Source of the DNA: Acuticoccus mangrovi
GTDB taxonomy: Bacteria; Pseudomonadota; Alphaproteobacteria; Rhizobiales; Amorphaceae
Direction of reading: 5' to 3'
NCBI RefSeq assembly: GCF_016411865.1
Contig: NZ_JAEKJA010000003.1
Coordinates: 62,001-126,000 of the forward strand
DNA length: 64,000 nucleotides
The translations under genes were made by a program, and so were the position numbers. Below are positions 3,294 to 25,439 of the stretch, piece after piece. The stretch's first letter is position 1; each line of letters opens with the position of its first letter. A model generated the notes under the pieces. The model worked only from the letters and a program-made list of their open reading frames with translations. It searched no databases and had not been told where the DNA came from.

Positions 3294-4838
3294 TCAGCGC
3301 GGCACGGTGATCCGGGCGGCCAGCGCTTCGGCGACGGCGCTGACGGTGGCGTGGATCGGGCCGGAGGGCAGGCTCGGGAACACCGAGGCGTCGCAGACGA
3401 AGAGGTTCGTGGTGCCCTTCACCCTGAGGTCCGCGTCGACCACGCCCTCGCGCCCCATGGCACAGGTGCCGGCGGGATGGTGGTGGGTGATGAGCGCGCG
3501 ACCGACGAAATCGTCGACGTCGTCGGCGCGCGTGACGGCGGGGCCGGGAAGCACCTCCTCGGCCACCCAGTCGGCGAGCGGCGGCGTCGCCGCGAGGGTG
3601 CGGGCGTAGGCGAGCGCATCGCGCATCCCCGCCCGGTCGGCGGGGTCGCCGAGATAGTTCGGGTCGATCACCGGCGCGTCCTCGAGGTGCGGGCCGCCCG
3701 GGCGGAGGCGGCCGCGGCTGCGCGGATGGGTGATGCCGAAGAGCAGCGTGAACGCCTCGCCCGGCGGCGGCGCGGCAAGGCCCGGCGCGGGGGCCGGCAC
3801 CACCACGGTCGCCGCCACCACGTCCGGCGCGCCTTCGTCCCCCCACGGCGCCGTCCTCTTGGCATAGAGCAGCGCCTCGGAGTGCTGCAGCCGCGAGGGC
3901 GCGACGGGACGGCGCGTGCGGTAGATGTTGCCGGCGCCGAAATAGTGATCGGCGAGGTTGTCGCCGACGCCGGCTCGCAGGAGACGCGGCGCAAGGCCGG
4001 CCTCGGCGAGCACCTCCCCCGCACCGATCCCGGAGCGCATCAGGAGGAGCGGACTGTCGATCGCTCCGGCGGCGACGACGATGGTCGGCGCCTCGACGAG
4101 GCACGGCCGACCGCTCCCGCGCACCCTGAGCCCGGTGGCGGCGAGTGCCCCGTCGGTGCCGGCCTCGGCGAGGACGATCGTTTCGACGCTCGCGCCGGTG
4201 AGGATCGTGAGGTTCGCCCGACCGTCCGTCGGCAGATAGGCGTCGGCGACGGTGATCCGCCTGCCGCCGCCGATCAGCAGCGTGTTCGCCGTCGCGCCCA
4301 CCAGACGGCCGGTGTTGTGGGAGGCAAGGCGCGGCAGGCCGAGCGCTTCGGCCGCGGCGACGGCGTCCGCCGCCAGCGGATGCAGCCGCCGCGGGTCGGG
4401 CGCGAGCGGCGCCGCGCTCCCCTCGGCGCGGGCCTTCGCCGCGGCGTAGCGTCGATCGACCCTTTCGAAGAACGGGCGCAGCGCGGCGAAGCTCCAGTCC
4501 TCACGCGCGACCGCCGACCAATGGTCGAAGTCGGCCGGATGACCCCACACATGGGCCATGGCGTGAACGAGGGTGGAGCCGCCGAGGCCTCGCCCGCGCG
4601 GCCAGGGGTGGACCCTCCCCGCGGTGAAGCGCTGCGGCAGGGTGCGATAGGCGTAGTCGTAGGGTTTGTTCTCGAGGCGCGGCCAGGCGAGCGGGTCGCG
4701 CATGTCGGGATCGTCGACCTCGCCGCCGGCCTCGACCAGGACCACCCGCCGCCCCGCCTCCTCCGACAGGCGTGAGGCGAGGACGCAGCCCGCCGCTCCC
4801 GCGCCGACGATGGCGACGTCGGCCTCGATCCTCTCCAT
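3294..4838 (-). CDS. GMC oxidoreductase, pyridoxine 4-oxidase-like
   Basis: A 514-residue GMC flavoenzyme with an N-terminal ADP-binding fold (VGAGAAGC at about 12) and FAD-loop motif GLGGSTLVHAM. It has the C-terminal catalytic segment THHHPAGTCAMG and a final GPIHATVSAVAE. Several stretches closely match what I recall of Mesorhizobium loti pyridoxine 4-oxidase, which oxidises pyridoxine to pyridoxal with oxygen: the YDYAYRTLPQ segment, GLPRL..HN, RLQHSEALLY and LLFGITHPRSRG. This fits the other vitamin B6 degradation genes further along the window. It follows the FadR-type regulator on the same strand with a 6-base gap. Choline-type dehydrogenases are the main alternative; enzyme specificity is inferred. 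Confidence 0.75.
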   Translation of the reverse strand: MERIEADVAIVGAGAAGCVLASRLSEEAGRRVVLVEAGGEVDDPDMRDPLAWPRLENKPYDYAYRTLPQRFTAGRVHPWPRGRGLGGSTLVHAMAHVWGHPADFDHWSAVAREDWSFAALRPFFERVDRRYAAAKARAEGSAAPLAPDPRRLHPLAADAVAAAEALGLPRLASHNTGRLVGATANTLLIGGGRRITVADAYLPTDGRANLTILTGASVETIVLAEAGTDGALAATGLRVRGSGRPCLVEAPTIVVAAGAIDSPLLLMRSGIGAGEVLAEAGLAPRLLRAGVGDNLADHYFGAGNIYRTRRPVAPSRLQHSEALLYAKRTAPWGDEGAPDVVAATVVVPAPAPGLAAPPPGEAFTLLFGITHPRSRGRLRPGGPHLEDAPVIDPNYLGDPADRAGMRDALAYARTLAATPPLADWVAEEVLPGPAVTRADDVDDFVGRALITHHHPAGTCAMGREGVVDADLRVKGTTNLFVCDASVFPSLPSGPIHATVSAVAEALAARITVPR

Positions 4839-4844: not shown

Positions 4845-5585
4845 CTAGCGCGGCGACATGCGCGCCATGATCTTCTCATGGACGCTGGCGAGGTGGCGGC
4901 GCATGGCGGCTTCGGCCGCCTCGGGGTTGCGGTCGGCGATCGCCTCGGCGATCTCGCGATGCTCCGCGTCGCGCGCGCGCAGCCGATTGGGGCACTTCGG
5001 CGCATTGTTGCCCGGCGCGATCCGCCCGTCGCAGCTCACCTGGCGCAGGAGGCCGTAGAGCTCGGCGCCGAGGCGGTTGCGCGAGGCGGCGGCGATCGCG
5101 CGGTGGAAGGCGACATCGGTGCTCGCCGCGTCCGCCGGCGTCGCCGTCTTCGCCCACGACAGGATCGTCGCGATCTCCCGCGGCGAGGCGCGGAAGGCGG
5201 CCTGGCGGGCAAAGCCAGGCTCCAGCAGCATCCGCAGCTCGACCACCTCGATCGGGTTCGAGTAGGCGACCATGTCCTCGGCGGTGCGGGCGAACTCGCC
5301 GTTCGGCCGGCCGATCTTGGCCGGGCCCAGCTCGCCGCGCTCGCGCAGCAGCGCCAGCGCCTGGCGCACCCGGTAGCGCTTGACGCCGAGCTCGGCGGCC
5401 AGCACGCGCTCGGCCGGCAGGTCCCCCTTCTCCGCCCGCATATGGCTCAGGGTCTCGGCAATGACGCTGATGTCCGGGTCCTCGCCCGACAATCCCCCGT
5501 CGGCCGCCTGCGGCATGGTGTCAGCCTCGAACGGCGTGGCCGTGTCGGAACGAGCGACGGTCGATCTCGCGCCTGCGTCTTCCAT
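4845..5585 (-). CDS. GntR-family transcriptional regulator, FadR subfamily
   Basis: This 246-residue protein has an N-terminal winged-helix at about residues 38-98 (LPAERVLAAELGVKRYRVRQALALLRERG) followed by an all-helical FCD ligand-binding domain from about 110 to 240. The FCD part shows VVELRMLLEPGFARQAA, DVAFHRAIAAAS and a late H-E-I-A-E-AI segment, the positions that normally supply metal or ligand contacts. The ATG at 5585 is preceded by GGAGGGCAC, a good ribosome-binding site, so the 35-residue polar leader before the winged helix appears genuine. It is transcribed with the pyridoxine-oxidase-like gene and divergently from the GMC gene at 5775. It probably controls both from the shared 189-base region. 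The effector is unknown. Confidence 0.85.
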   Translation of the reverse strand: MEDAGARSTVARSDTATPFEADTMPQAADGGLSGEDPDISVIAETLSHMRAEKGDLPAERVLAAELGVKRYRVRQALALLRERGELGPAKIGRPNGEFARTAEDMVAYSNPIEVVELRMLLEPGFARQAAFRASPREIATILSWAKTATPADAASTDVAFHRAIAAASRNRLGAELYGLLRQVSCDGRIAPGNNAPKCPNRLRARDAEHREIAEAIADRNPEAAEAAMRRHLASVHEKIMARMSPR

Positions 5586-5774: not shown

Positions 5775-7436
5775 GTGGCGAACGAGGAGCGGATTACGGC
5801 CGACTACGTGATCGTCGGCGCCGGTTCGGCGGGCTGCACCCTCGCCTACCGCCTCTCCGAGGATCCGTCGGTCGAGGTGGTGGTGCTCGAGGCCGGCGAG
5901 TGGGACCGCGACCCGCTGATCCACATCCCCATCGGCTGGGTGCGGATCCTGCAGCAGCGCAAGCACGACTGGATGTATTTCTGCGAGCCCGAGGCCGCCG
6001 TCGACGGGCGCGGCATCGAGTGCGCCCGTGGCAAGGTGGTGGGCGGCAGCTCGTCCACCAACGCCATGGCGTGGGTGCGCGGCAACCGTCGCGATTTCGA
6101 CGACTGGGCCGCCGCCGGCCTCGCCGGCTGGGGCTACGAGGACACCCTGCCCTATTTCAAGCGTCACGAGCGCTGGGAGGGGGGCGAGAGCGCGCTGCGG
6201 GGCGGCTCGGGCCCCATCGGGGTGAAGAATTGCGCCTACGAAGATCCGCTGCTCGACGCCTTCAAGGCCGCCGGCGCCGCCGCCGGCCACCCTTGGACCG
6301 ACGACTATAACGGCGCCGTGCAAGACGGGTTCGCCACGCTGCAGATGAACATCGCCGGCGGTCACCGCGCCTCCCACGCCACCCACTGCCTGCGACCGGC
6401 GCTGAAGCGGGCGAACTGCCGCCTCCTCACCGGCGCCCAGGTGACCTCGGTGGACTTCGACGGCACGACGGCGACGGGCGTCACCTTCCGGCACCGCGGC
6501 ACCGAGAAGGTGGCGGTGGCGGCGCGCGAGGTGATCCTCGCCGGCGGCGTCATCAACACGCCGCAGCTCCTGATGCTCGCCGGCATCGGCGATCCCGAGG
6601 CGCTCGGCCGGCACGGCATCGCGACGCGGGTGCCGCTCCCCGGCGTCGGCGCCAACCTGCAGGACCACCTGTCCTCCGTGGTGATGGTCGCCCGCCGCGA
6701 GCCCGGCCCCTTCCACCGGATGATGCGGGTCGACCGCATCGCCGGCGCCGTCGCCAGCGCCTACCTCCTCGGCAAGGGCTTCGCGACGGAGGTTCCGGGC
6801 GGCGTGGTGGCGTTCCTGAAGAGCAGTGTCGCCACCGACCGGCCCGACATTCAGGTCATGCTGACCGCGGCGCCGATCACCGCCGAACCCTATCTGGAGC
6901 CGTTCAAGAAGCCGTTCCAGGACGCCTTCGCCTTGCGCGTGGTGACGATCCAGCCGGAGGGGCGCGGCACGGTCGCCCTCGCCTCCGCCGACCCGCTGGC
7001 GAAGCCGCTGATCCGGCAGAACTTCCTGTCGACCGAGCGCGACCGGCGGGCGATCGTCGACGGGGTGAAGATGATGAAGGACATCCTCGCCGAGGCGCCG
7101 ATGGCCCCGTTCGTGGGGCGGGAGCTCGCGCCCGGAGCGGATGCGAGCGAGGCGGACATTCTCGCCCACGTGCGGGCGAGCGCCATCACGCTGCACCACC
7201 CCTGCGGCACCGCGGCGATGGGCGGCGACGGCGATCCGATGGCCGTCCTCGACGGCGCGCTGCGGGTGCGCGGCGTCGACCGGCTGCGCGTGGTCGACGG
7301 CGCCGCCATGCCGCGCATCACCTGCGGCAACATCAACGCCCCGATCACCATGATGGCGGAGAAGGCGGCGGACCTCATCCGCGCCGCGGCCACGGCCGAG
7401 GCGACGGTCGCCAGCGCCGCCCCCGTCGCCGCATGA
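5775..7436 (+). CDS. GMC family oxidoreductase (choline dehydrogenase-like)
   Basis: This 553-residue flavoenzyme should oxidise an alcohol substrate. It has the FAD-binding VGAGSAGCTLAYRL near residue 15 and the GKVVGGSSSTNAMAW loop. GVGANLQDHL lies near the middle, and the C-terminal active-site pair is in LHHPCGTAAMG and GNINAPITMMAEKAA (His plus Asn, the common choline-dehydrogenase-like arrangement). It differs clearly from the GMC enzyme at 3294, which has a second His instead. The GTG at 5775 is used because GGAGGGTGAGC precedes it. It lies alone between a divergent regulator and the cupin gene, with 166 bases to the latter. Substrate is not identifiable; an alcohol feeding the neighbouring pathway is an inference. 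Confidence 0.85.
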   Translation: MANEERITADYVIVGAGSAGCTLAYRLSEDPSVEVVVLEAGEWDRDPLIHIPIGWVRILQQRKHDWMYFCEPEAAVDGRGIECARGKVVGGSSSTNAMAWVRGNRRDFDDWAAAGLAGWGYEDTLPYFKRHERWEGGESALRGGSGPIGVKNCAYEDPLLDAFKAAGAAAGHPWTDDYNGAVQDGFATLQMNIAGGHRASHATHCLRPALKRANCRLLTGAQVTSVDFDGTTATGVTFRHRGTEKVAVAAREVILAGGVINTPQLLMLAGIGDPEALGRHGIATRVPLPGVGANLQDHLSSVVMVARREPGPFHRMMRVDRIAGAVASAYLLGKGFATEVPGGVVAFLKSSVATDRPDIQVMLTAAPITAEPYLEPFKKPFQDAFALRVVTIQPEGRGTVALASADPLAKPLIRQNFLSTERDRRAIVDGVKMMKDILAEAPMAPFVGRELAPGADASEADILAHVRASAITLHHPCGTAAMGGDGDPMAVLDGALRVRGVDRLRVVDGAAMPRITCGNINAPITMMAEKAADLIRAAATAEATVASAAPVAA

Positions 7437-7602: not shown

Positions 7603-8739
7603 ATGAACGCACCGAAGGCGTTTTCCAACAGAGACGAAGCTCTCAAGGCGCTCTACGACGATCTGTCGGCCCGCAACATGTTCCCCTTCTGGGCGACGAG
7701 CTCGGATGTCGAACACGACGAGGTGCGCCAGCTGATGGGCTCACAGAAGGCCGTGCCCTTCGTGTGGTCCTACAAGGAGGACATCGAGCCCATCCTCCAT
7801 CGCGCGGCCGAGCTCGTGACCATGGACGATTCGGAGCGTCGCTCGCTGATCCTGGTCAATCCTGGCCTCAACCCGCGCCGCGCGACGGTGTCGACCATGT
7901 ACACCGCCTACCGGCTCAACGATCCCAACGAGATCATGCCGCCGCACCGCCACTCGCCGAACGCCATCCGCTTCGGCCTGATCGGCTCGGGCAACTTCAC
8001 CGGCGTCGAGGGCGAGGACATCACCTTCGGTCCGGGCGACATGGTGCTCACCCCCATCGACACCTGGCACAACCACGGCACGGTGGGCGACGAATCGGCC
8101 GTCAACCTCTCGGTGCTCGACCTGCCGCTCGTCGAAACGCTCAATTCCATCTACTTCGAGCACGACTACAAGGAAGACGCAGAGCTCAAGAAGAAGCAGA
8201 CCGCGCGCTTCCCCACCGACTACTCCCAGCGCATCTACGGCCACGGCGGCATGATGCCCCGCTTCGTGTCCCACAAGCGCGGCACCCGGGCGGCCTCGCC
8301 GATGTACGTCTACCGCTGGGACATGATGCGGGAGATCCTCGAGAAGCATAAGGACTGGGACGGCGACCCCTACGAGGCGCTGATGGTCGAATATATCGAC
8401 CCGACCACCGGCGGGCCGGTGTTCAAGACCATCACCTTCTTCGTCCAGATGCTGCGCCCCGGCGAGAAGACGATGCCGCTGCGCCAGACCGCGAGCCTCC
8501 TCGTCGCCCCCTTCGAGGGCAAGGGCTACTCGATCATCGACGGCCAGAAGCACGAGTGGAACCAGTTCGACACGCTGGCGGTGCCGGGCGGCAGCTGGTG
8601 CCAGCACGTCAACGCCTCGGATACCGAGCCCACCGTGCTGTTCGTCGCCTCGGACGAGCCCGCGCTCAAGGCCTTCAACCTCTTCAACCGCTGGGGCCGC
8701 GACGAGGCCGGCGACACCGTGCACCTTTCAGACCGCTGA
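7603..8739 (+). CDS. Bicupin dioxygenase, gentisate 1,2-dioxygenase-like
   Basis: The 378-residue product has the double-cupin layout and length of gentisate/1-hydroxy-2-naphthoate dioxygenases, non-heme Fe(II) ring-cleaving enzymes. The N-terminal cupin (about residues 95-180) has PPHRHSPNAIRF followed by GDMVLTPIDTWHNHG, supplying the expected His-x-His and late His iron ligands. The second cupin (about 270-365) has lost clear histidines in its first motif. I start at the ATG at 7603, with GGTGAGGAGAGG upstream, because residues before it look non-coding. It leads a run of ten same-strand genes including RidA, GST and a pyridine-aldehyde dehydrogenase homologue. The real substrate could be a dihydroxy-aromatic or pyridine acid; specificity is unknown. 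Confidence 0.75.
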   Translation: MNAPKAFSNRDEALKALYDDLSARNMFPFWATSSDVEHDEVRQLMGSQKAVPFVWSYKEDIEPILHRAAELVTMDDSERRSLILVNPGLNPRRATVSTMYTAYRLNDPNEIMPPHRHSPNAIRFGLIGSGNFTGVEGEDITFGPGDMVLTPIDTWHNHGTVGDESAVNLSVLDLPLVETLNSIYFEHDYKEDAELKKKQTARFPTDYSQRIYGHGGMMPRFVSHKRGTRAASPMYVYRWDMMREILEKHKDWDGDPYEALMVEYIDPTTGGPVFKTITFFVQMLRPGEKTMPLRQTASLLVAPFEGKGYSIIDGQKHEWNQFDTLAVPGGSWCQHVNASDTEPTVLFVASDEPALKAFNLFNRWGRDEAGDTVHLSDR

Positions 8740-8747
8740 GACTCTCC

Positions 8748-9878
8748 ATGGCCGATGCCCTGAACACCTCTCTACTCGGCCATATCGACTGCCCCGGCGG
8801 CGGCCAGGTCTGGGTCGAGGGGACGACGCTCTACGTGGGCCACATGCGCGGGCCCTCCGGCACGTCGATCTACGACGTGTCGGACCCCCGTTCTCCCAAG
8901 CAGATCGCCCGCATCCACCTGCCGCCCGGCTGGCACTCCCACAAGGTGCGCGTCGCCGGCGACATCATGATCGTCAACCACGAGAAGCTCGGCCAGGACG
9001 GCGATCTCGACTTCGGCGGCGGTCTCGGCATCTACGACGTGTCGAACCCCGCCGAACCGCGCGAGATCGCCAAATGGCGCACCAGCGGTGGCCGCGGCGT
9101 CCATCGCTACGACTTCGACGGCCGCTACGCCTACATCTCCCCCACCGCCGAGGGCTATGTCGGCAACATCGTGATGATCCTCGACCTCGCCGATCCCGCC
9201 TCCCCCAAGGAGGTCGGTCGGTGGTGGATCCCCGGCCAGTTCACCGGCGGCGGCGAAGACTATCCGTGGGACAACTGGGTGACGCCGCGCTGCCACCATC
9301 CGCTGCGCCAGGGCGACCGGCTCTATGTGAGCTACTGGCACCACGGCCTCTTCATCCTCGACATCTCGGACCTGTCGAAGCCGCAGCTGATCTCGCAGTA
9401 CAACACGAGCCCGTCCTTCCCCCACCCGACGCACACCTGCCTGCCGATGCCCACGCCGTTGAAGGGTCGCAAGATCATGGTGGTGGCGGACGAGGACGTC
9501 GCCAAGCTGTGGCCCGTCGCCCCCTCCTTCGCCTGGGTCTACGACATCACCGAAGAGCGGCTGCCGGTGCCGATCTCGACGATCAATGTGGACGGGCTCG
9601 ACACGGACGGCTCGCCGCAGCCGCCTATGACCGGCTGCCACCAGCCCTCCGAGCGCTTCAGCGGCACGGTGATCCCCTTCGCCTGGTTCGCCCAGGGCCT
9701 CCAGATCTTCGACATCAAGGATCCGTTCCGCCCGGTCTCGGTGGGCCACTACCTGCCGGACGTTCCGGAGGGCGCCGACCGCCCCTCCTCCAACGACGCC
9801 ACCATCGACGAGCGTGGTCTCGTCTACCTCGTCGACCGGATCCACGGCGTCGACATCATCGAAACCAGCGTTTTCTAG
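8748..9878 (+). CDS. LVIVD-repeat beta-propeller protein
   Basis: This 376-residue protein consists of repeated blocks of the form x-x-IYDVSDPxxPKxIA, seen at roughly residues 42, 97, 145, 205 and 325. This is the LVIVD repeat that builds a beta-propeller. No signal peptide is present, so it should be cytoplasmic, unlike many LVIVD proteins. Several His residues (HSHK, RCHHP, HTCLP, GCHQP) are spread through it and could bind metal. It starts 8 bases after the cupin stop. In this operon setting it may be an enzyme or a scaffold in the same pathway. No catalytic role is established for such proteins as far as I know, so none is assigned. Confidence 0.75.
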   Translation: MADALNTSLLGHIDCPGGGQVWVEGTTLYVGHMRGPSGTSIYDVSDPRSPKQIARIHLPPGWHSHKVRVAGDIMIVNHEKLGQDGDLDFGGGLGIYDVSNPAEPREIAKWRTSGGRGVHRYDFDGRYAYISPTAEGYVGNIVMILDLADPASPKEVGRWWIPGQFTGGGEDYPWDNWVTPRCHHPLRQGDRLYVSYWHHGLFILDISDLSKPQLISQYNTSPSFPHPTHTCLPMPTPLKGRKIMVVADEDVAKLWPVAPSFAWVYDITEERLPVPISTINVDGLDTDGSPQPPMTGCHQPSERFSGTVIPFAWFAQGLQIFDIKDPFRPVSVGHYLPDVPEGADRPSSNDATIDERGLVYLVDRIHGVDIIETSVF

Positions 9879-9888
9879 CGGAGAGCCC

Positions 9889-10278
9889 ATGGCCGACACT
9901 CCCGACCGCTACCCGATCGGCAAGAAGAACCCCAACCTGCCCTTCTACCCGGCGGTACGGGCCGGCGACTTCATCTTCGTCTCCGGCCAGGTGGCGAAGG
10001 ATGCCGACGGCAACATGATCGACGGCACCATCGAGGTGGAGACGGCCGCGACCATCGAGGCGATCCAGCGCATCCTCGCCGAGGCAGGCGCGACGCTCGA
10101 CGACGTGGTGCGCGCCTGCACCTACCTGCAGGATACCCGCGATTTCGGCCGCTACAACAAGGTGTTCGGCCAGTATTTCACCAACGCCGGCCTCGCCCGA
10201 ACCACGGTCGAGGCCAAGGCCGTCATCAACACCAAGATCGAAATCGACTGCGTGGCCTACAAACCCCTGCCGCGCTGA
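9889..10278 (+). CDS. RidA family enamine/imine deaminase
   Basis: The 129-residue product has the whole YjgF/RidA fold: FVSGQVAKDADG, then ETAATIEAIQRILAEAGATLDDVVR, and a C-terminal ARTTVEAKAVINTKIEIDCVA. The arginine before TTVEA matches the substrate-carboxylate arginine of active RidA proteins, so hydrolytic activity on 2-aminoacrylate-like enamines or imines is plausible. The start codon follows GGAGAGCCC, and the gene lies 10 bases after the LVIVD gene. In a catabolic operon, a RidA member often removes ammonia from unstable enamine products. Here that would suit opening of a nitrogen heterocycle, which is an inference from context. Confidence 0.88.
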   Translation: MADTPDRYPIGKKNPNLPFYPAVRAGDFIFVSGQVAKDADGNMIDGTIEVETAATIEAIQRILAEAGATLDDVVRACTYLQDTRDFGRYNKVFGQYFTNAGLARTTVEAKAVINTKIEIDCVAYKPLPR

Positions 10279-10290
10279 AGGAGGCTCGCC

Positions 10291-11214
10291 ATGATGAAGT
10301 CGCTCCTCGTCGCTCTCGCTGCCACGCTGGCTGCCACCGCAGCCGACGCGCAGACGGTCCGCTTCGGCGCCGGCCAGCAGGGCTCGCAGAACTACGGCGT
10401 CAACGCCGCCCTCGCCCAGGCCGTCGACGAGCGCACGCCGCTGTCGGCGCAGGTGCAATCCTTCGGCGGGCCGACGGCCTACCTGCCGCTGCTGTCCTCC
10501 GGTGAGCTCGACTTCGCCGCCGTGGTCACCCCCGACGCGGGCGACGCGGTGCGCGGCAAGGGCCCCTTCGACGGCAACGCCCTCGGCGACCTCACCCTGG
10601 TCGCGCCCCTGTTTCCGAGCCCCGTGGGGCTGATGGTGCGCGCCGACGACGGTATCGCCACCATCGCCGACCTCAAGGGCAAGCGCGTCGCCTGGGGCAT
10701 CCCGGCGCAGGCGAGCCTGCTGCCCTACGTCGAGGGCGCCCTCGCCAACGGCGGCCTCTCCATCGACGACGTCGAGCAGGTCCCGGTGGCGAGCGTCGCG
10801 AACGGCGTCGACGCGCTGGTCGACGGCTCGGTCGACGCGACCCTCTTCGCGCTGCGTAGCGGCAAGGTGGTGCAGGCCGATTCCGCCGTCGGCGGCGTGA
10901 AGTGGCTGCCCTTCGACGACAGCGAGGCCGCCGTCGCCGCCATGCAGGCCGTCGCGCCCGAATCCTACCTCGTGCCGGTGAAGCCGGAGGACAAGGTGGT
11001 CGGCGCCCCCGAACCGATGATGACGATGGCCTACGACTACGTGCTCCTCGCCAACGCCGGGGTGGCAGACGAGACGGTCGCCGCCGTCCTCACCATGCTG
11101 CACGACGACGGCGCGGAGATCGCCGCGGCGAACCGCGTGATCGGCGCGATCACCGAGGAGTCGCTCAACCGCGACTACCCCGCCTTCACGCGCCATCCGG
11201 CCGCGGCGAAATAG
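10291..11214 (+). CDS. TAXI-family TRAP transporter substrate-binding protein
   Basis: This 307-residue periplasmic protein has a signal peptide (about residues 1-21, ending ADAQT) and the TAXI signature near the start of the mature part, GAGQQGSQNYGVNAAL, where the Gly/Ser/Gln loop normally contacts the ligand. It is a little shorter than average. The gene lies 12 bases after RidA and 24 bases before the fused permease, so the two form one high-affinity, sodium- or proton-driven importer. TAXI binding proteins commonly bind glutamate or other carboxylates, and the ligand here is unknown. The operon suggests a carboxylated aromatic or pyridine compound. Confidence 0.88.
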   Translation: MMKSLLVALAATLAATAADAQTVRFGAGQQGSQNYGVNAALAQAVDERTPLSAQVQSFGGPTAYLPLLSSGELDFAAVVTPDAGDAVRGKGPFDGNALGDLTLVAPLFPSPVGLMVRADDGIATIADLKGKRVAWGIPAQASLLPYVEGALANGGLSIDDVEQVPVASVANGVDALVDGSVDATLFALRSGKVVQADSAVGGVKWLPFDDSEAAVAAMQAVAPESYLVPVKPEDKVVGAPEPMMTMAYDYVLLANAGVADETVAAVLTMLHDDGAEIAAANRVIGAITEESLNRDYPAFTRHPAAAK

Positions 11215-11238
11215 ACCTATCGGGAGCGCGGGCCCACC

Positions 11239-13134
11239 ATGACGCCGGAGCGCACACGGGACGCCGCGATTGGGAGCCTTTCGGCGCTCCTCGTCATCGC
11301 CTCGCTCGCGTTCGTGACCGACCTGCCGCGGCGCTTCGGCGTCGTGCTCTTCACCGAGCAGCAGCTCGCCATCGCCCTGGCGCTCGCCGCCGCGGCCGGC
11401 GTCTTCCTCGCCCTCAACCCGAAGCGGGTGGCAAGCCTCGTCGCCGCCGCCCTCCTCGCCGTCGTGACGCTCGTCGTCCTCGGCATGATCGCGGCGGACT
11501 ATCCGACGCTCTCGATCAAAGCGGCGATGCGGCCCACCGATCTGGTGGTCATCGCCACCTTCATCGTCGCGCTGGTGCTCTTCCTGGTGTGGCGACTGAT
11601 CGGGCTGCCGCTCGTCCTTCTGGTGCTCCTCTTCGTGGGCCTCGCCATCTACGGCGGTCCCCTCGGGGTGCCGGAGACGACGCCCGCCCGCGTCCCCCTC
11701 TATCTCGCGCTCGACGCCAACGCCCTCCTCGGCCTGCCGCTGCGGGTGGCGATCGAGGTGGTGATCCCCTTCGTCCTCTTCGGCGAGCTCCTGCGCGTCA
11801 CGGGCGGCGGCGAGTTCCTGACGCGCCTCGCGGTGGCGGCCTTCGGCGGCTATCGCGGCGGCGCGGCGAAGGCCGCCATCGGCGCTTCGGCAGTGTTCGG
11901 CACCGTGTCGGGCAACGCCGTCTCCAACGTGGTGGGAACGGGGGTGGTCACGATCCCCCTCATCAAACGCACCGGCTTCACCGGGCCGCAGGCGGCGGCC
12001 ATCGAGGCGGTCGCCTCCACCGGCGGCCAGCTGTTGCCACCGGTGATGGGGGCGGCGGCCTTCGTCATGGCCGACCTCCTGCGCGTGCCCTATACCGACA
12101 TCCTGATCGCGGCGGCCCTTCCCGCCCTCCTCTATTTCGCGGCCGTCACCATCCAGGTGGACAGGCTCGCGGCGAAGCGCGGCATCCGCGGTCTCGCGGC
12201 GGCCGAGCGCCCGCGCATCGACCGGGCGGCGCTCGCCGGCGCCCACTTCGCACTGCCTTTCATCGCGATGTTCGGCGCCCTCTTCGCCTTCGAGACACGG
12301 CCCCAATATGCCGCCCTCGCCGCCTCGGCCGTGCTCATCGTGGTGGCGGCGGTCGTGCGCTTCGACGGGCGCCGGCTCGGCCTCTCGGGCATCCTCGACG
12401 CCGTGATCGCGACCGGGCGCGCGTCGGTGCCGCTCGTCGCCATCGTCGCGGCGGCCGGCCTTCTCATCGGCCTCATCAGCCTGACGGGGCTCGGCTTTTC
12501 GCTCGCCCTCGACGTCATCCGCATGGCGGACGGCTCGTCGATCGTGCTCCTCGCGCTCGTCGCTCTCTGCGCCATCGTGTTCGGCATGGGGATGCCCACG
12601 GTGGCGGTCTACGTGGTGCTCGCCACCGTCCTAGCGCCGGCGCTCGTCAAGGCCGGCTTCGGCGAGATGCAGGCCCATCTCTTCATCTTCTATTTCGGCA
12701 TGATGAGCATGCTCACGCCGCCCGTGGCGCTCGCCTCGATCACCGCCGCGCGCATCGCGGAGGCGGACCCCTGGGTGTCGAGCTTCGTCGCGGTGCGGCT
12801 CGCCTGGGTCGCCTATCTCGTCCCCTTCCTCTTCGCCTTCTCCACCCCGCTGCTCCTCGACGGGCCGGTGCCGCTCGTGGTGGCGGCCGTCGTCACCGGC
12901 TTCGGCGGCATCCTCGCCGTGTCGATGGCGCTCGCCGGCTACGGCGCGCGCCCGCTCGGCTTGCTGATGCGGCTCGCCTTCGCGGCGGCGGGGCTGATGC
13001 TTCTCGTTCCCTTCGGGCTCGGCACGGTGCCGGCGGCGCTCAACATCCTCGGCGCCGCGCTCCTCCTCGCCCTTCTCGGGCGGGACAGTCTCGCCCGTCT
13101 TCTCCGCTCAACAACTCTCACGAGGCTCCAATGA
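11239..13134 (+). CDS. TRAP transporter fused permease subunit (DctQM type)
   Basis: A 631-residue polytopic membrane protein in which the small (DctQ-like) and large (DctM-like) TRAP permeases are fused. This is the usual form for TAXI systems. About four helices form the N-terminal small domain. The large domain has characteristic segments: FGTVSGNAVSNVVGTG around residue 215, GQLLPPVMGAAAFVMAD around 260, and a late FGMGMPTVAVYVVLATVLAP. It partners the binding protein immediately upstream. Its last codons overlap the GST start by four bases (ATGA at 13131-13134), so translation of the two is probably coupled. Confidence 0.9.
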   Translation: MTPERTRDAAIGSLSALLVIASLAFVTDLPRRFGVVLFTEQQLAIALALAAAAGVFLALNPKRVASLVAAALLAVVTLVVLGMIAADYPTLSIKAAMRPTDLVVIATFIVALVLFLVWRLIGLPLVLLVLLFVGLAIYGGPLGVPETTPARVPLYLALDANALLGLPLRVAIEVVIPFVLFGELLRVTGGGEFLTRLAVAAFGGYRGGAAKAAIGASAVFGTVSGNAVSNVVGTGVVTIPLIKRTGFTGPQAAAIEAVASTGGQLLPPVMGAAAFVMADLLRVPYTDILIAAALPALLYFAAVTIQVDRLAAKRGIRGLAAAERPRIDRAALAGAHFALPFIAMFGALFAFETRPQYAALAASAVLIVVAAVVRFDGRRLGLSGILDAVIATGRASVPLVAIVAAAGLLIGLISLTGLGFSLALDVIRMADGSSIVLLALVALCAIVFGMGMPTVAVYVVLATVLAPALVKAGFGEMQAHLFIFYFGMMSMLTPPVALASITAARIAEADPWVSSFVAVRLAWVAYLVPFLFAFSTPLLLDGPVPLVVAAVVTGFGGILAVSMALAGYGARPLGLLMRLAFAAAGLMLLVPFGLGTVPAALNILGAALLLALLGRDSLARLLRSTTLTRLQ

Positions 13135-13760
13135 TCCGCCTGCTTGGCCGCAAGACGTCCGGCAACGTGCAGAAGGTGCTCTTCCTCCTCGAAGAGCTCG
13201 GCCTTCCCTACCGTCGCGAGGACTACGGCCGCCAGTTCGAGAACACGGCGACCGCCGAGTATCTCGCGATGAACCCGATGGGGAAGGTGCCGACCCTCCT
13301 CGACGGCGACGTGGTGGTTTGGGAATCGAACACGATCCTGCGCTACCTCGCCGCCAAGCACAGTCCCGCCCTCGGCGGCGAGACGCCAGCCGAGGCCGCC
13401 GCCATCGAGCCCTGGATGGACTGGCTGCTCGCCACGGTGAACGCGCCCTATCTCACCCTCTTCAAGGAGACGAAGAAGGAGCCCGCCGAGCGCTCCGAAG
13501 CCTTCGCCCCCGCCGCCAAGGAGCTCAACGCCGCGCTCAAGATGGCCGACGGGCGCCTCGAGGGGACGGACTATCTCGCCCTCGGCCGGCTGAGCCTTGC
13601 GGACATCGCCTGCGCCTCGGTGCTGAAGCGGTGCATGGAGTTCCCGGTGGAGCGGCCGGAGCTGCCCAACCTCACCCGCTGGATGGACGGCCTCCTCGCC
13701 CGCCCCGCCTTCCAGGTGGCGCTCGGCGAGCGCACCAGCACCCTCGCCGAGGCCGCGTGA
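13131..13760 (+). CDS. Glutathione S-transferase family protein
   Basis: The 209-residue product has an N-terminal thioredoxin-like domain (about 1-78). It carries the catalytic-loop segment GRKTSGNVQKVLFLLEELG, the cis-proline NPMGKVPTL and the glutathione-binding WESNTILRYL. A helical C-terminal domain follows, with a YLALGRLSLADIACASVL hydrophobic core. The Ser near residue 9 is the likely glutathione-activating residue. It overlaps the TRAP gene upstream and the dehydrogenase downstream by four bases each. Such GSTs in ring-cleavage operons may isomerise cis/trans ring-opened acids, as maleylpyruvate isomerase does. However, this one does not look like the zeta-class isomerase, so that role is only a suggestion. 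Confidence 0.87.
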   Translation: MIRLLGRKTSGNVQKVLFLLEELGLPYRREDYGRQFENTATAEYLAMNPMGKVPTLLDGDVVVWESNTILRYLAAKHSPALGGETPAEAAAIEPWMDWLLATVNAPYLTLFKETKKEPAERSEAFAPAAKELNAALKMADGRLEGTDYLALGRLSLADIACASVLKRCMEFPVERPELPNLTRWMDGLLARPAFQVALGERTSTLAEAA

Positions 13761-14686
13761 GCGGGGCCGTCACCCGCGCCGCACTCGTCGGCCTCGGAAC
13801 CATGGGACCCGGCATCGCGGCGGCCCTCGGCCGCGGCGGCGTCGCGGTGACGGCGACCGATACCCTTCCGACCGCGCTCGAGCGGGCGGAGGCGATGCTT
13901 CCCATCGCCCGCGGCGCGCTCGACGCCCTCGGCCGCACCGGCGAGGATGCCGCCGTCCGCTTCACCCCCTCCCTCGCGGAAGCGGTGGAGGGGGCCGACA
14001 TCGTCATCGAGAACGTGCCGGAAGACGTCGCGATAAAGACCGCCCTCTACGGCGCGATCGAGGCGCTGGTCCCGCCCGAGACGCTGATCGTCTCCGACAC
14101 CTCGGGCATTCCGATCAGCGACCTTCAGGTCGGCCTCGCCCATCCGGAGCGGATGGCCGGGATGCACTGGTCGAACCCGCCCCACATCGTGCCGATGATC
14201 GAGGTGATCGGCGGCAAGGCCACCGCGCCGGCGACGCTCGCCGCCGTCAGCGCTCTCGTGAGCGCCATCGGCTACCTCCCCGTGCGGGTGAAGAAGGACG
14301 TGCCGGGCTTCGTCGAGAACCGCATCCTCTACGCCATCATGCGCGAAGCGCTCGACCTCGTGGACGCGGGCGTGGTGGAGGCCGACGCCCTCGACACCTG
14401 CGTCTCGTGGGGCATCGGCTACAAGCTCGCCGTAGTGGGGCCGATGGCCCTCCTCGACATGGCCGGGCTCGACATCTACCGCTCCGTCGCGAGCTTCCTC
14501 AACAAGGAGCTCTCCGACCGCAAGGACGTCGCCCCCCTTATCGAGGAGCGCTTCGCCGCCGGAAAGCTCGGCCTCAAGACCGAGGAGGGGCTGAAGGCCT
14601 ACGCGTCCGGCGAGGTGGCGCGGCTGACCGGCGAGCGCGCCAAGCGCCTCATCGCCGTGCGCCGCGCCCTCGAGGGTACGGCGTGA
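13757..14686 (+). CDS. 5-formyl-3-hydroxy-2-methylpyridine-4-carboxylate dehydrogenase-like (3-hydroxyacyl-CoA DH family)
   Basis: This 309-residue NAD enzyme has the Rossmann motif VGLGTMGPGIA at the start. The catalytic pair is His137 (GMHWSNPPH) and Glu149 (PMIEV). Length, catalytic numbering and stretches such as SDTSGIPI, VKKDVPGFVENR and SWGIGYK match what I recall of the Mesorhizobium loti enzyme that oxidises the 5-aldehyde of the pyridine acid in vitamin B6 degradation pathway I. Ordinary 3-hydroxyacyl-CoA dehydrogenases usually have SNTSS instead of SDTSG. It starts at a GTG overlapping the GST stop (GTGA) and overlaps the next gene the same way. Assignment is by remembered similarity; a related pyridine aldehyde is the main alternative substrate. 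Confidence 0.78.
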   Translation: MSGAVTRAALVGLGTMGPGIAAALGRGGVAVTATDTLPTALERAEAMLPIARGALDALGRTGEDAAVRFTPSLAEAVEGADIVIENVPEDVAIKTALYGAIEALVPPETLIVSDTSGIPISDLQVGLAHPERMAGMHWSNPPHIVPMIEVIGGKATAPATLAAVSALVSAIGYLPVRVKKDVPGFVENRILYAIMREALDLVDAGVVEADALDTCVSWGIGYKLAVVGPMALLDMAGLDIYRSVASFLNKELSDRKDVAPLIEERFAAGKLGLKTEEGLKAYASGEVARLTGERAKRLIAVRRALEGTA

Positions 14687-15204
14687 GCCCCCGCGACATG
14701 CCGATCGGCGGGGACATTCTCGCAACCCTCTCGGCGGCGAGCCACAAGCTCGTGCGCCTCCTCCTCGGCCTCGTGCTTCTCGCGATGACGCTCGCCAACG
14801 CCCTCAACGCCGGCGCGCGCTACCTCTTCGGCACCCAGATGCGCGGTACTGATGAGCTGCTCGCCTTCAGCCAGGTGGGCATCGTCATGCTTGGCCTCGC
14901 CGTGGTGACGGCGGAGCGGCGCCACCTCGCCGTCGACCTCTTTCCCGCGAAGAGCCCGATCAACGCGCTGCGCCGCCTCGTCCTCTCCCTCGTCACCTTC
15001 GCCGCCACGCTCTACGCCGCCATCCAGTCCTACGCCTTCGTGGAGCGGATGGCCGCGTTCGGCTCCAAGAGCATGGGGCTCGGCGTGCCGATGGTGATCC
15101 CGCACGCCCTCGTCTTCGTCGGCTTCGCCCTCACCGCGGCCGTGGCGCTCGCGACGGCGCTCGCCGACGCCCGCGCCCTCGTGAGCGAGGAAAGCCGCCG
15201 GTGA
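14683..15204 (+). CDS. dctQ: TRAP transporter small permease DctQ
   Basis: The 173-residue protein has four hydrophobic helices (about 22-44, 57-77, 95-115, 138-160). It carries the DctQ feature of a charged loop after helix 2, GLAVVTAERRHLAVDLF. It starts at GTG 14683 overlapping the preceding TGA; an ATG at 14698 is a second possibility with no better ribosome site. Together with the next two genes it makes a complete DctP-type importer. Being coupled to a pyridine-acid dehydrogenase gene hints that the importer brings in that pathway's acid substrate. That is inference. Confidence 0.87.
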   Translation: MSPRDMPIGGDILATLSAASHKLVRLLLGLVLLAMTLANALNAGARYLFGTQMRGTDELLAFSQVGIVMLGLAVVTAERRHLAVDLFPAKSPINALRRLVLSLVTFAATLYAAIQSYAFVERMAAFGSKSMGLGVPMVIPHALVFVGFALTAAVALATALADARALVSEESRR

Positions 15205-16472
15205 TCGTGACGCTCGCCGCCCTTCCCGTCGCCCTCCTGGCGCTCGGTGCGCCGGTCTTCATCGTGTTCCTCGCCGGTGCCATCGCCACCATCGCATGGG
15301 TGCTGCCGGTCCCGCCGATCATCATCCAGCAGACGGTGTTCGGCTCGCTGTCGAACTACGCCCTCCTCGCCGTGCCCTTCTTCCTCTTCGCGGGCGAGCT
15401 GATGCGCCGCTCGGGGATCGCCGACCGCCTGGTGGACTTCGCCATCGCCGCGGTCGGGCGCGTGCCCGGATCGATGGGCCTCACCACCATCGGCGCGGGC
15501 ACGGTGCTCGGCGCGGTGTCGGGGTCGAGCCCGGCGACCGTCGCCGCCCTCGGCAAGACGCTTTATCCGGGCCTCCTGCGCACCCGCCACTCGCCGAGCG
15601 AGGCGGCCGGGCTGATCGCCTCCAGCGCCTCCGTCGCCATCGTCATCCCCCCGTCGATCGCGATGATCCTCTACGGCGCGGCGGCCGAGCAGTCGATCGC
15701 CAAGCTGTTCATCGCCGGCGTCCCGGCGGGGCTCCTCATCGCCGGGCTGATGGCGCTCTGGGTGGTGGGGGTCGCGCTGGTGCGCGGCAGCGCGTCCGAG
15801 CATCGCTTCGTCGCCGCCATCGCCGTCCGCGCCTTCCTGCGCGCCGTGCCGGGGCTGTTGATGCCGGTATTCGTCCTCGGCGGCATCGTCGCGGGGTGGT
15901 TCTCGCCCACCGAGGCGGGCGGCTTCGCCGCGCTCTATGCGATCCTCGTCGGCATCCTCGTGCACCGCTCGCTCTCCTTGTCGGAGCTCCTGGAGGCGGC
16001 CGCCGAGGCGGCGGTCCTGTCGGCGCAGATCCTCATCATCGTCGCCGCGGCGGGGGTGTTCTCCTACCTCCTCACCACGCAGCAGGTGCCGCAGGCCCTG
16101 ATCGGCTGGGTCGGCGGCCTCGGTCTCAACGCCTGGCAGTTCCTCCTCGCGGTCAACCTCCTGCTGCTGGCGGTGGGCTGTCTGCTCGATCCCACCTCGG
16201 CGATCCTCGTGCTGTCGCCGCTCCTCGTGCCGATGGCGACGTCGCTCGGCATCGACCCGATCCACTTCGGCATCGTCATGACGGTGAACCTTGCCATCGG
16301 CATGTTCACCCCGCCCTTCGGCCTCAACGTGTTCGTGGCCCAGTCGGTGCTCGGGCTGCCGCTCGGCACCATCTTCCGCGGCGTCCTGCCCTTCGCGATC
16401 GTCCAGATCCTGGCCCTCGCGATCATCACCTACTGGCCGCCCCTCACCCTCGCCATCACCCGTCTCGTCTAG
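15201..16472 (+). CDS. dctM: TRAP transporter large permease DctM
   Basis: A 423-residue membrane protein with about twelve helices. Hallmark DctM motifs are present: AGELMRRSGIADRLVDF near 60, GAVSGSSPATVAALG near 105, IPPSIAMILYG near 150, FSPTEAGGFAALYA near 235, and a late FTPPFGLNVFV. This subunit forms the ion-coupled translocation path. Its GTG start at 15201 overlaps the dctQ stop. It is separated by 11 bases from the binding-protein gene, which has its own strong ribosome site. Confidence 0.92.
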   Translation: MIVTLAALPVALLALGAPVFIVFLAGAIATIAWVLPVPPIIIQQTVFGSLSNYALLAVPFFLFAGELMRRSGIADRLVDFAIAAVGRVPGSMGLTTIGAGTVLGAVSGSSPATVAALGKTLYPGLLRTRHSPSEAAGLIASSASVAIVIPPSIAMILYGAAAEQSIAKLFIAGVPAGLLIAGLMALWVVGVALVRGSASEHRFVAAIAVRAFLRAVPGLLMPVFVLGGIVAGWFSPTEAGGFAALYAILVGILVHRSLSLSELLEAAAEAAVLSAQILIIVAAAGVFSYLLTTQQVPQALIGWVGGLGLNAWQFLLAVNLLLLAVGCLLDPTSAILVLSPLLVPMATSLGIDPIHFGIVMTVNLAIGMFTPPFGLNVFVAQSVLGLPLGTIFRGVLPFAIVQILALAIITYWPPLTLAITRLV

Positions 16473-16483
16473 GAGGACTCTCC

Positions 16484-17482
16484 ATGCGCTTCCGCATCGC
16501 CGCCACCGCTCTCGCCATCGCGATGGCCGCCGCCCCCGCTCAGGCGCAGACCGTCATGAAGATGGCGAGCGCCACCATCAACGACGTGCAGCACGAGTTT
16601 CAGAAGGTCTTCAAGCGCGAGCTTGAAGCGACCGTCGGCGATGCCATCACCGTGGAGATCTACCCGGCGAGCCAGCTCGGCCCGATCCCGCAGATGGCGG
16701 AGGGTGTCGCCTTCGGCACCATCGAATCGTTCATCTCGCCGACGTCCTTCCTGACCCCGCTCGACCCGAAATTCCAGGTGTTCGACGTCCCGGGCCTGTT
16801 CGCCTCGCCGGACGAGCTCTCGGCGGTGATCCACGATCCCGACTATCGCGACCACATCGAGACGATGTTCCTCGACCGCGGGCTGCGCGTCATCGGCGCC
16901 ATCTACAACTCGCCCGTCCTCATTCTGACGCGCAAGCCGGTGGAGACGGTCGCCGACATGAAGGGGCTCAAGGTGCGCACCTTCGCCTCGCCCCTTCAGG
17001 TGCTGCCGATGGAGGCCGTCGGCGCCATCGCGACGCCGCTGCCCCTTTCGGAGGTGGTGCCGCAGCTCCAGTCCGGCGGCATCGACGGGATGCTCGCCGG
17101 CATGCCCATCCTCACGGCGTTCAAGTTCTACGACATCGCCAAGAACGTGACCGACCTCGACTTCTCGTTCATCGTCTCGATGAATGTGGTGAACGAGCAG
17201 TGGTTCCAGTCGCAGGCGCCGGAGATCCAGGAGGCGATCCGCCAGGCCGGTCGCGCCGCGGAGGCGGAGGTGTTCCCCTGGGGCGTCGAGAACGTGGCGC
17301 GCGCCAACGGCGTGTGGACCGACAATGGCGGCATGATCCACCAGCTTCCCGCCGATGAGCTGAAGGCGATGCTCGCCGAGTTCGAATCGATCGGCGCCGA
17401 GGTGGTGACCGCCGAGCCGGCCACCGCCGAGGAGTATGAGCGCCTTCAGGGCGTCCTGAAGGCGAAGCGCGAGGCGAACTAG
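16484..17482 (+). CDS. dctP: TRAP transporter substrate-binding protein DctP
   Basis: A 332-residue periplasmic protein with a signal peptide (residues 1-21, ending PAQAQT) and the DctP fold. The segment DMKGLKVRTF contains the conserved arginine that pairs with the ligand's carboxylate in characterised members. An AGGAGG ribosome site lies 8 bases before ATG 16484, stronger than those of the permease genes, as expected for the most abundant subunit. It ends the long plus-strand operon. Its TAG overlaps the stop of the opposite-strand gene at the palindrome CTAG (17479-17482). The ligand is a carboxylate but cannot be identified. Confidence 0.92.
   Translation: MRFRIAATALAIAMAAAPAQAQTVMKMASATINDVQHEFQKVFKRELEATVGDAITVEIYPASQLGPIPQMAEGVAFGTIESFISPTSFLTPLDPKFQVFDVPGLFASPDELSAVIHDPDYRDHIETMFLDRGLRVIGAIYNSPVLILTRKPVETVADMKGLKVRTFASPLQVLPMEAVGAIATPLPLSEVVPQLQSGGIDGMLAGMPILTAFKFYDIAKNVTDLDFSFIVSMNVVNEQWFQSQAPEIQEAIRQAGRAAEAEVFPWGVENVARANGVWTDNGGMIHQLPADELKAMLAEFESIGAEVVTAEPATAEEYERLQGVLKAKREAN

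Positions 17483-22675: not shown

Positions 22676-25439
<2,764 letters not shown>

Follow-up and report, generated by a model that had tools for sequence, protein, structure and literature searches.

A conserved gene cassette around an unusual iron dioxygenase that probably opens the vitamin B6 ring by a non-textbook reaction

Here we describe a conserved gene cassette, organized around an unusual iron dioxygenase, that probably opens the pyridine ring of vitamin B6 by a reaction other than the textbook one. It is located in the window, by which we mean the whole stretch of 64,000 nucleotides of Acuticoccus mangrovi DNA that was analysed. The textbook lower half of the B6 route consists of the HMPDC decarboxylase, the flavin oxygenase MHPCO and the AAMS hydrolase. 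We consider it likely that B6 is converted by the known route into 3-hydroxy-2-methylpyridine-4,5-dicarboxylate (HMPDC), and that C3-C4 cleavage by a bicupin dioxygenase, together with a RidA-family, an LVIVD and a GST-like protein, replaces this lower half; the substrate, the bond cleaved and the LVIVD, RidA and GST steps are what we infer from the sequences. The first-pass annotation had proposed a nitrogen-ring cleavage module in which RidA acts on the product and the LVIVD protein is an enzyme, and this proposal is now well supported by the gene context, the mutual exclusion with the textbook ring-opening genes and the changes in the active site.

The vitamin B6 cluster around the cassette

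It is close to certain that the cassette genes are part of a vitamin B6 catabolic cluster, at about 3.3-25.4 kb of the window: four neighbouring genes exceed curated NCBIfam cut-offs, and one more matches a solved pyridoxine 4-oxidase. The cluster contains, on the plus strand, genes for the B6 ABC transporter ATPase (19138-20670; NF047930, 766 bits, cut-off 670), 4-pyridoxolactonase (22706-23512; NF047925, 480 bits, cut-off 325), pyridoxamine-pyruvate transaminase (PPAT; 23505-24674; NF046070, 642 bits, cut-off 600) and an SDR-type pyridoxal 4-dehydrogenase (24702-25439; NF047923, 403 bits, cut-off 325) and, on the minus strand, GMC1 (3294-4838), a pyridoxine 4-oxidase homologue scoring 435 bits to PDB 4ha6. 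A BMP-type solute-binding protein of the ABC importer (17977-19011, plus strand; assigned by eye from sequence and position), which has relatives in 42 of 80 related loci containing the cupin, and two ABC permeases (20667-21740 and 21740-22675, plus strand; assigned by eye and position) are encoded next to the ATPase. An FCD/GntR-family regulator (4845-5585, minus strand), above the Pfam cut-off for FCD and just below that for GntR, is divergent from GMC2 (5775-7436, plus strand), a GMC-family protein whose position points to a probable 4-pyridoxate (CH2OH-oxidising) dehydrogenase; a regulator relative and GMC2 are each found in 61 of the 80 cupin loci. A search for a GntR operator yielded TGGTTGAC, which 33 of the 43 intergenic regions between regulator and GMC2 contain (1.7 on average and at most 5 in shuffles), but it resembles a -35 box, and its best match in the window lies inside the LVIVD gene.

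All six genes from the bicupin to the GST (7603-13760) are on the plus strand. Sequence reading and Pfam and NCBIfam searches agree with the first-pass annotation on the genes for the bicupin (7603-8739), the LVIVD beta-propeller (8748-9878; Pfam LVIVD, 65.1 bits), the RidA-family imine/enamine deaminase (9889-10278; Pfam), a TAXI TRAP solute-binding protein (10291-11214; NCBIfam TRAP_TAXI, above cut-off) and the GST-like protein (13131-13760; Pfam GST_N/GST_C); the sixth encodes the fused TRAP permease that partners the TAXI protein (11239-13134; NCBIfam TRAP_fused, above cut-off). The permease and GST genes share an ATGA overlap (13131-13134), and the overlapping-codon coupling to a pyridine-aldehyde dehydrogenase homologue, also described previously, corresponds to a GTGA (13757-13760) shared by the GST gene and that of a probable FHMPC dehydrogenase (5-formyl-3-hydroxy-2-methylpyridine-4-carboxylate 5-dehydrogenase; 13757-14686, plus strand), the enzyme that makes HMPDC. 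The window's FHMPC dehydrogenase scores 394.7 bits to PDB 4om8 and 467.6 bits with NF042925, under the curated cut-off of 500, which its orthologues of 10 other genomes of the order exceed; it forms a long branch in the tree. Trees were made from those of 96 sources having a long enough, stop-free match, which were 71 for FHMPC dehydrogenase and 62 for GMC2. A TRAP importer follows (14698-17482, plus strand), made up of DctQ (14698-15204, by eye), DctM (15201-16472) and DctP (16484-17482), the last two by model.

The upper half of B6 degradation pathway I, known from Mesorhizobium loti MAFF303099 and Pseudomonas sp. MA-1, is common to the window cluster, and includes pyridoxine 4-oxidase, PPAT, pyridoxal 4-dehydrogenase, 4-pyridoxolactonase, the GMC dehydrogenase, a probable FHMPC dehydrogenase and the B6 ABC importer. 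However, unlike pathway I, the window cluster is devoid of the HMPDC decarboxylase, MHPCO and the AAMS hydrolase, and instead contains the cupin, LVIVD, RidA and GST genes. The first-pass annotation named neither the whole vitamin B6 pathway nor the absence of MHPCO.

Conservation of the cassette and exclusion of the textbook genes

The grouping of cupin, LVIVD, RidA and GST is far beyond chance. In all 80 related loci, the cupin and LVIVD genes are direct neighbours or are separated by about one gene (roughly 1 kb); 69 of the loci contain RidA (11 do not) and 68 contain GST (12 do not), presence being counted with bit-score limits that we set ourselves. The conservation of the cupin-LVIVD-RidA trio in other genomes, proposed as a check in the earlier annotation, is therefore borne out, which does not apply to its inclusion of the TAXI importer in the module: TAXI-TRAP occurs in only 4 of the 80 loci, plus genome G009. 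Importers vary between the cupin loci (TAXI-TRAP, DctPQM, THI5-like ABC), and TAXI-TRAP is one of several interchangeable ones and not part of the core. No strict B6 marker is within reach in 23 of the 80 loci, and six loci, which are 6-11.4 kb long, are without any B6 marker. In one MAG lineage, hydantoinase A/B and pyruvate carboxylase genes adjoin the cupin gene.

In the genome of the window, relatives of the HMPDC decarboxylase reach at most 32% identity, MHPCO has no match at E 1e-80, and the best relatives of the AAMS hydrolase are 28-29% identical. We searched 397 genomes of the order (340 of them good, 141 genera; the sample was taken as identical across searches from equal sizes and tallies) and found FHMPC dehydrogenase in 11; five of these have MHPCO, six have the cupin, and none has both or neither. 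Given the margins, the chance of such a perfect split is 1/462, although it should be noted that the counts are few and related, because only three genera are represented among the five MHPCO genomes. The remaining 386 genomes have neither MHPCO nor the cupin at the thresholds used. We recognised the MHPCO set by means of 3alj/3gmb, 3kxp and 2z7b; orthologues of the decarboxylase and the AAMS hydrolase were found only in the five MHPCO genomes, the relatives in the 11 cupin genomes searched being at most 32% identical. The LVIVD orthologue shows the opposite distribution (11 of 11 cupin genomes, 0 of 5 MHPCO genomes).

For a sample of the class, the NCBIfam search for FHMPC dehydrogenase at default E gave matches in 323 of 385 genomes, and also in 9 of 14 controls; the counts were therefore restricted to the strong group (above 460 bits, the next score being 245), and a repeat at E 1e-100 matched none of the 14 controls. 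Strong FHMPC dehydrogenases are present in six of the 385 genomes, all of which have the cupin. Over the class and order samples, 16 genomes have a strong FHMPC dehydrogenase, 11 of them with the cupin set and 5 with the textbook set. A search for MHPCO in 49 of the genomes behind the 80 cupin loci gave no orthologue, with relatives of 40-44% identity in three of them. The exchange is no simple one-for-one swap of place, because the two sets occupy different positions relative to GMC2: the MHPCO set is flanked by a regulator of another kind and by GMC2, which in these clusters is immediately upstream of the FHMPC dehydrogenase gene, and the cupin set lies between GMC2 and FHMPC dehydrogenase.

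The bicupin active site and its predicted substrate

The bicupin has near full-length homology to 3bu7, 2d40 and 4fag (3bu7: E 1.8e-50, residues 13-362 of 378) and is about 31-37% identical to full-length gentisate/salicylate-type paralogues. It has the bicupin architecture, the Fe-His3 site and Arg83/Arg127/His162 in common with the salicylate 1,2-dioxygenase of Pseudaminobacter salicylatoxidans and bacterial gentisate 1,2-dioxygenases, and, like them, is predicted to cleave beside a carboxylate. The iron triad (H115/H117/H156) and the equivalents of the other three residues (R79, R123 and H158) are present in 81 of 81 orthologues; five of the 81 aligned rows extend past their own stop codon, and the positions compared are all inside the gene. 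Unlike these dioxygenases, for which Gln108, Trp172 and Asp174 were found in 24 of 24 proteins compared and Leu38 in 23, all 81 orthologues carry Phe, Arg, Asn and Ser at these places (L38F, Q108R, W172N, D174S; F29, R104, N168 and S170 of the window cupin), and a pyridine is the predicted substrate. The relevant passages of PMC11264262 describe Leu38, Gln108, Trp172 and Asp174 as conserved in all GDOs and, with those of PMC10306065, assign contacts with the substrate carboxylate to Gln108 and with the gentisate 5-OH to Asp174. With the Asp that contacts this 5-OH replaced in every orthologue, the cupin is unlikely to act on gentisate alone. HMPDC has an extra carboxylate beside the first, and no counterpart of the gentisate 5-OH.

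Gentisate and 5-aminosalicylate dioxygenase are nevertheless the closest named families, as would suit an ordinary dioxygenase for gentisate or salicylate that belongs to some other aromatic pathway and has ended up in the B6 cluster by chance. However, both scores (218.9 of 442.1 bits for the gentisate 1,2-dioxygenase model TIGR02272, and 208.3 of 650) are less than half of the curated cut-offs, the four GDO-conserved residues are replaced throughout, the exclusion with MHPCO is perfect, and the same contig encodes a distinct paralogue, 33% identical to the cupin, that retains the usual Gln, Trp and Asp (and has a His at the place of Leu38, where the alignment is unsure). We reject an ordinary gentisate pathway on the grounds of active site and gene context, and regard an ordinary dioxygenase of either kind as extremely improbable.

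HMPDC, being a salicylate-like hydroxy-carboxylate, would bind the Fe(II) of the bicupin through its 3-OH and 4-COOH, as salicylate does in salicylate dioxygenase, and insertion of O2 would split the C3-C4 bond; decarboxylation, flavin-dependent opening by MHPCO and AAMS hydrolysis would not follow HMPDC. The 3-OH beside the 4-COOH is also found in 4-pyridoxate and FHMPC, and the cupin might open the ring earlier, at one of these (5-CH2OH or 5-CHO), with FHMPC dehydrogenase acting on the opened chain or a side branch. FHMPC dehydrogenase is present in 56 of the 80 cupin loci and missing from 24, compact loci such as L044, L092 and L112 keep cupin-LVIVD-RidA-GST and GMC2 without it, and 14 of the 18 genomes whose loci lack it or are doubtful have none genome-wide at E 1e-90. 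In these genomes, therefore, the cupin may act on the aldehyde or on 4-pyridoxate, or a different aldehyde dehydrogenase may take over. Against a generally earlier opening, five of the loci without FHMPC dehydrogenase contain an ALDH, bringing those with either enzyme to 61 of 80, the FHMPC dehydrogenase gene overlaps that of the GST in the window, and the change of Gln108 to Arg suits a second carboxylate. We hence consider opening before HMPDC unlikely.

Processing of the opened chain

C3-C4 cleavage of HMPDC would yield HOOC-CO-C(COOH)=CH-N=C(CH3)-COOH, whose nitrogen would belong to an N-substituted 2-iminopropanoate on one side and a substituted 3-aminoacrylate on the other. Rid proteins (RidA, RutC) are described in sections of PMC8113886 as hydrolysing imine/enamine bonds of kinds resembling these, with Arg105 of RidA and Arg104 of RutC as the catalytic arginine. 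Because of this resemblance, the window RidA would release pyruvate first and then, from the C5 enamine that is left, ammonia. Its R104, found in at least 97% of 70 sequences, is, judging by the motif, presumably the equivalent of the Rid catalytic arginine; imine/enamine deaminase chemistry would suit both predicted product bonds. Unlike RidA and RutC, it is a member of a catabolic operon and is below both curated cut-offs (TIGR00004, 82 of 106.25 bits; RutC model, 58.7 of 169.1). The GST, whose T9-S10-G11-N12 is shared by at least 97% of 69 sequences, scores 34.9 bits with the maiA model (maleylpyruvate/maleylacetoacetate isomerase, GST zeta; cut-off 171.05), and the solved chains closest to it carry no more specific name than glutathione S-transferase; that the GST isomerises the double bond of the opened chain is a guess.

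The LVIVD protein, the constant partner of the cupin, would act on the opened chain as a metal-dependent propeller hydrolase. No signal peptide is seen by eye at its N-terminus (MADALNTSLLGHIDCPGGG). Its AF2 model (pLDDT 88.9) has as its top Foldseek match 5hrm_A (E 2.5e-16; next entry 1.2e-8), the Sphingobium TCM1 phosphotriesterase, a seven-bladed propeller with a binuclear metal centre. The VIA comparison with 5hrm (Z 31.3, rmsd 3.2 over 347 residues) does not by itself single out this structure, because unrelated propellers score Z 29-30. 5hrm is also the only sequence-profile match in the PDB, as a sum of weak pieces with a best single E of 0.004. The two proteins are about 18-21% identical over the aligned part, and LVIVD differs in its predicted substrate and in having a metal centre that is a prediction. 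The five more distant LVIVD proteins in the comparison all retain H119, H229, E249 and H298, and in a profile alignment, itself a weak match, H119 falls on residue 258 of 5ioj, and W62/H63 on residues 201/202; we take residues 201 and 258 to be metal ligands.

Being the strictest partner of the cupin (80 of 80 loci) where the HMPDC decarboxylase is absent, LVIVD might instead replace that decarboxylase (HMPDC to MHPC), leaving the cupin to open MHPC to an intermediate of the textbook type. This we find very improbable: MHPC has no carboxylate beside its 3-OH, yet salicylate dioxygenase uses Arg83, Arg127 and His162 to hold the ortho hydroxy-carboxylate, and these residues do not vary among the cupin orthologues; the closest fold to LVIVD is a hydrolase; and the AAMS hydrolase that the textbook product requires is also absent.

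In the open-licence PMC literature, outside which most subscription papers lie, we found no published account of a cupin in B6 catabolism. If cleavage of HMPDC by the bicupin is verified, the cupin would be a ring-cleavage dioxygenase that works on a pyridine, RidA would have a catabolic role on a ring-derived imine, and an LVIVD protein of this type would have its first function, offering the large LVIVD family a function that can be tested; the route would cleave the ring without NAD(P)H and give pyruvate as a product. It is conceivable, with a chance that we put a little short of even, that the MHPCO route is a late and local replacement in some Rhizobiales, and that the widespread bacterial route for opening the B6 ring is C3-C4 cleavage of HMPDC by a dedicated bicupin, with a metallo-propeller hydrolase and a Rid deaminase following it. 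A second, mutually exclusive ring-opening set would alter the annotation of B6 and 4-pyridoxate turnover in bacteria that live in soil, in the sea and with plants.

The cupin module and its vitamin B6 surroundings

Genes, strands and overlaps were read straight from the sequence, and genes were named by Pfam and NCBIfam. The first-pass annotation had placed the start of the bicupin dioxygenase (cupin) gene at 7603 and the end of the GST gene at 13760, and both coordinates are exact. The gene for 5-formyl-3-hydroxy-2-methylpyridine-4-carboxylate 5-dehydrogenase (FHMPC_DH; 13757-14686), which makes 3-hydroxy-2-methylpyridine-4,5-dicarboxylate (HMPDC), continues this cupin-to-GST module with no break between them in the window sequence. 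Downstream of the module, the ATPase of a B6 ABC importer, 4-pyridoxolactonase, pyridoxamine-pyruvate transaminase and an SDR pyridoxal 4-dehydrogenase all score above the curated NCBIfam cut-offs, and upstream of it lie a pyridoxine 4-oxidase homologue (GMC1; 435 bits against 4ha6), a regulator of the FCD type and another GMC enzyme (GMC2, a probable 4-pyridoxate dehydrogenase). Together these genes cover the upper part of vitamin B6 degradation pathway I, the textbook route outlined in PMC3538738, with HMPDC as its endpoint. The substrate class of the module follows from this setting.

Two smaller features lie in the same region. A small predicted exported protein of ~144 aa, with Cys, is encoded on the minus strand from 17479 to ~17913, between the DctP gene and the gene for the solute-binding (BMP) protein of the B6 importer, and has a relative in 52 of 96 loci, including both the cupin kind and the kind with the ring-opening flavin oxygenase MHPCO. 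Just 5' of the B6 ABC ATPase gene, the 16-base unit CGTGATCTGAGACACC is present in four perfect copies (19055-19118).

Two mutually exclusive gene sets in the genomes sampled

The textbook steps after HMPDC are carried out by HMPDC decarboxylase, MHPCO and AAMS hydrolase, and all three are absent from the window organism. A search of 397 genomes of the order detected FHMPC_DH (E 1e-100) in 11, MHPCO (E 1e-80) in five and the cupin (E 1e-100) in six genomes; the MHPCO and cupin genomes do not overlap and add up to exactly the 11 FHMPC_DH genomes, and the other 386 have neither MHPCO nor the cupin at these thresholds. Among the five MHPCO and 11 cupin genomes (six from the order and five from the class sample) that were examined, HMPDC decarboxylase (74-100% identity) and AAMS hydrolase (76-100%) are confined to the five MHPCO genomes, and the relatives of these two enzymes in the 11 cupin genomes are at most 32% identical. 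Matches to solved structures (3alj/3gmb, 838 bits; 3kxp, 492 bits; 2z7b, 465 bits) served to identify the MHPCO set. One genus, g336, holds both kinds, with three MHPCO genomes and one cupin genome. MHPCO orthologues were found in none of the 49 cupin-locus genomes searched, three of which have 40-44% relatives.

Gene order is otherwise much alike in four of the five MHPCO loci and in those cupin loci that were read in detail: GMC1, a divergent regulator, GMC2 and FHMPC_DH come first, and importers, lactonase and transaminase follow. The two sets are placed slightly differently: MHPCO and its partners are flanked by the regulator and GMC2, the cupin and its partners by GMC2 and FHMPC_DH. The MHPCO loci have a regulator other than the GntR orthologue, phnR-like in the case of L162. 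The fifth MHPCO locus (L165, genome G053) has no GMC1, importer or lactonase within the 20 kb read. As for the cupin kind, genome G009 has no GMC1 in the stretch read, some class genomes have GMC2 elsewhere in the cluster or none seen in the stretch read, and G506 carries cupin, LVIVD and GMC2 on a separate short contig. A THI5-like ABC importer inside the operon, identified partly by eye, is common to both kinds of cluster (L160, L161, L163 and 33 of 80 cupin loci), and is a candidate 4-pyridoxate importer.

The five MHPCO genomes nest inside the cupin-type diversity in a tree of FHMPC_DH (71 rows) and in one of GMC2 (62 rows), with two label changes; one clade in these trees has support of 100/98. 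Because both trees were rooted at the midpoint and their rows came mostly from loci found through the cupin, they only suggest that the MHPCO set is the newcomer.

Conservation and variants of the cupin locus

The genome_contigs collection (84,980 species genomes), scanned once with an alignment of three cupin sequences, yielded 88 cupin loci, of which 80 were kept (61-78% identical, mostly alpha- and betaproteobacterial records). Bauldia litoralis and Mesorhizobium ciceri WSM1271 are among the organisms with a cupin orthologue. Counted with bit-score limits that we set ourselves, and with several of the 80 loci ending at contig ends, LVIVD is present in all 80, RidA in 69, GST in 68, GMC2 in 61, FHMPC_DH in 56, the BMP protein in 42 and TAXI in four; the three textbook genes are present in none. 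A strict B6 marker occurs in 42 of the 53 loci with full flanks, and an aldehyde dehydrogenase is found in five loci where FHMPC_DH is missing. Some loci are compact, with regulator, cupin, LVIVD, RidA, GST, importer and GMC2, and might belong to 4-pyridoxate specialists. RidA and GST are missing from the locus in one MAG lineage; there, hydantoinase/oxoprolinase A and B adjoin cupin, FHMPC_DH and LVIVD in six loci (L091, 13277-20779; also L079, L084, L088, L090 and L113), and a pyruvate carboxylase adjoining the cupin was read in L091.

An AA_synth gene (PF06684) was seen in an MHPCO-type cluster (L162, 5886-6476) and also in a MAG cluster of the cupin type that lacks RidA and GST (L102, 10120-10665). 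The clusters of L036 (record title Mycobacterium sp. KBS0706) and L100 (Bordetella parapertussis MAG) group with Inquilinus and with a Burkholderiales MAG, and these record names may be mislabelled.

Cupin active site, predicted LVIVD propeller and proposed chemistry

The LVIVD protein was modelled with AlphaFold2 as a confident propeller (pLDDT 88.9, pTM 0.89). For this model, Foldseek put the Sphingobium TCM1 phosphotriesterase first, with an E value almost eight orders of magnitude better than the next entry, and by VIA Z it is slightly ahead (31.3 vs 30.0); according to a paper title cited in PMC11656708, this enzyme is a seven-bladed propeller that houses a binuclear metal centre. The sequence profile matched only the two TCM1 phosphotriesterase entries in the PDB, with E values (2e-10 and 4e-10) summed from several weak pieces. 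In five of five more distant LVIVD proteins (33-55% identity), H119, H229, E249 and H298 are kept, and H198, H226, K253 and C297 differ. An LVIVD orthologue (at least 71%) is present in 11/11 cupin genomes and 0/5 MHPCO genomes. Distant LVIVD proteins are common, being found at E 1e-20 in 42 of 239 order genomes, the six cupin genomes among them; most non-cupin matches are 33-45% identical, the outliers being G502 (56%) and G469 (60% over a fragment), neither of which is among the six order genomes with a cupin match at E 1e-100. The G502 protein (L195, 7046-8209; 55-56% identical) is encoded near an ABC importer and retains most of the pocket residues that were compared, so it may act on a related compound. 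A gene that, judged by its motif, would encode a CobW-type GTPase adjoins one cupin-LVIVD pair (L104, 12551-13690) and one distant LVIVD (L199, 3038-4078), hinting at metal supply, which would suit LVIVD as a metal enzyme.

In all, 81 cupin orthologues were compared, in salicylate dioxygenase numbering, with 24 proteins of the gentisate/salicylate type, of which 21 are paralogues and three are PDB chains. Every orthologue keeps Arg83, His119, His121, Ala125, Arg127, His160, His162 and Leu176, and every one carries Leu38->Phe, Gln108->Arg, Trp172->Asn and Asp174->Ser; the gentisate/salicylate-type proteins have Gln, Trp and Asp in 24/24 and Leu in 23/24. These four residues are described as conserved in all gentisate dioxygenases (PMC11264262), in which Gln108 contacts the carboxylate, and Asp174 with Trp104 the 5-OH of gentisate (PMC10306065). 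HMPDC shares the adjacent OH and COOH of salicylate but adds a second COOH beside the first and, unlike gentisate, has no OH at the gentisate position. Judged from the alignment, the substitutions would fit HMPDC.

We propose that the cupin would split C3-C4 of HMPDC to give HOOC-CO-C(COOH)=CH-N=C(CH3)-COOH. RidA is described as a 2-iminobutanoate/2-iminopropanoate deaminase (PMC7023182) and RutC as a 3-aminoacrylate deaminase requiring Arg104 (PMC8113886), and both bonds to nitrogen in the predicted product would resemble the substrates of these enzymes; an arginine is conserved at the expected place in the window RidA family. No published description of a cupin ring-opening set was found in the open-licence literature searched. 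The gene content, conservation and mutual exclusion of the two sets are solidly established for the genomes sampled, and C3-C4 cleavage of HMPDC by the cupin is the best reading of them and probably the right one.
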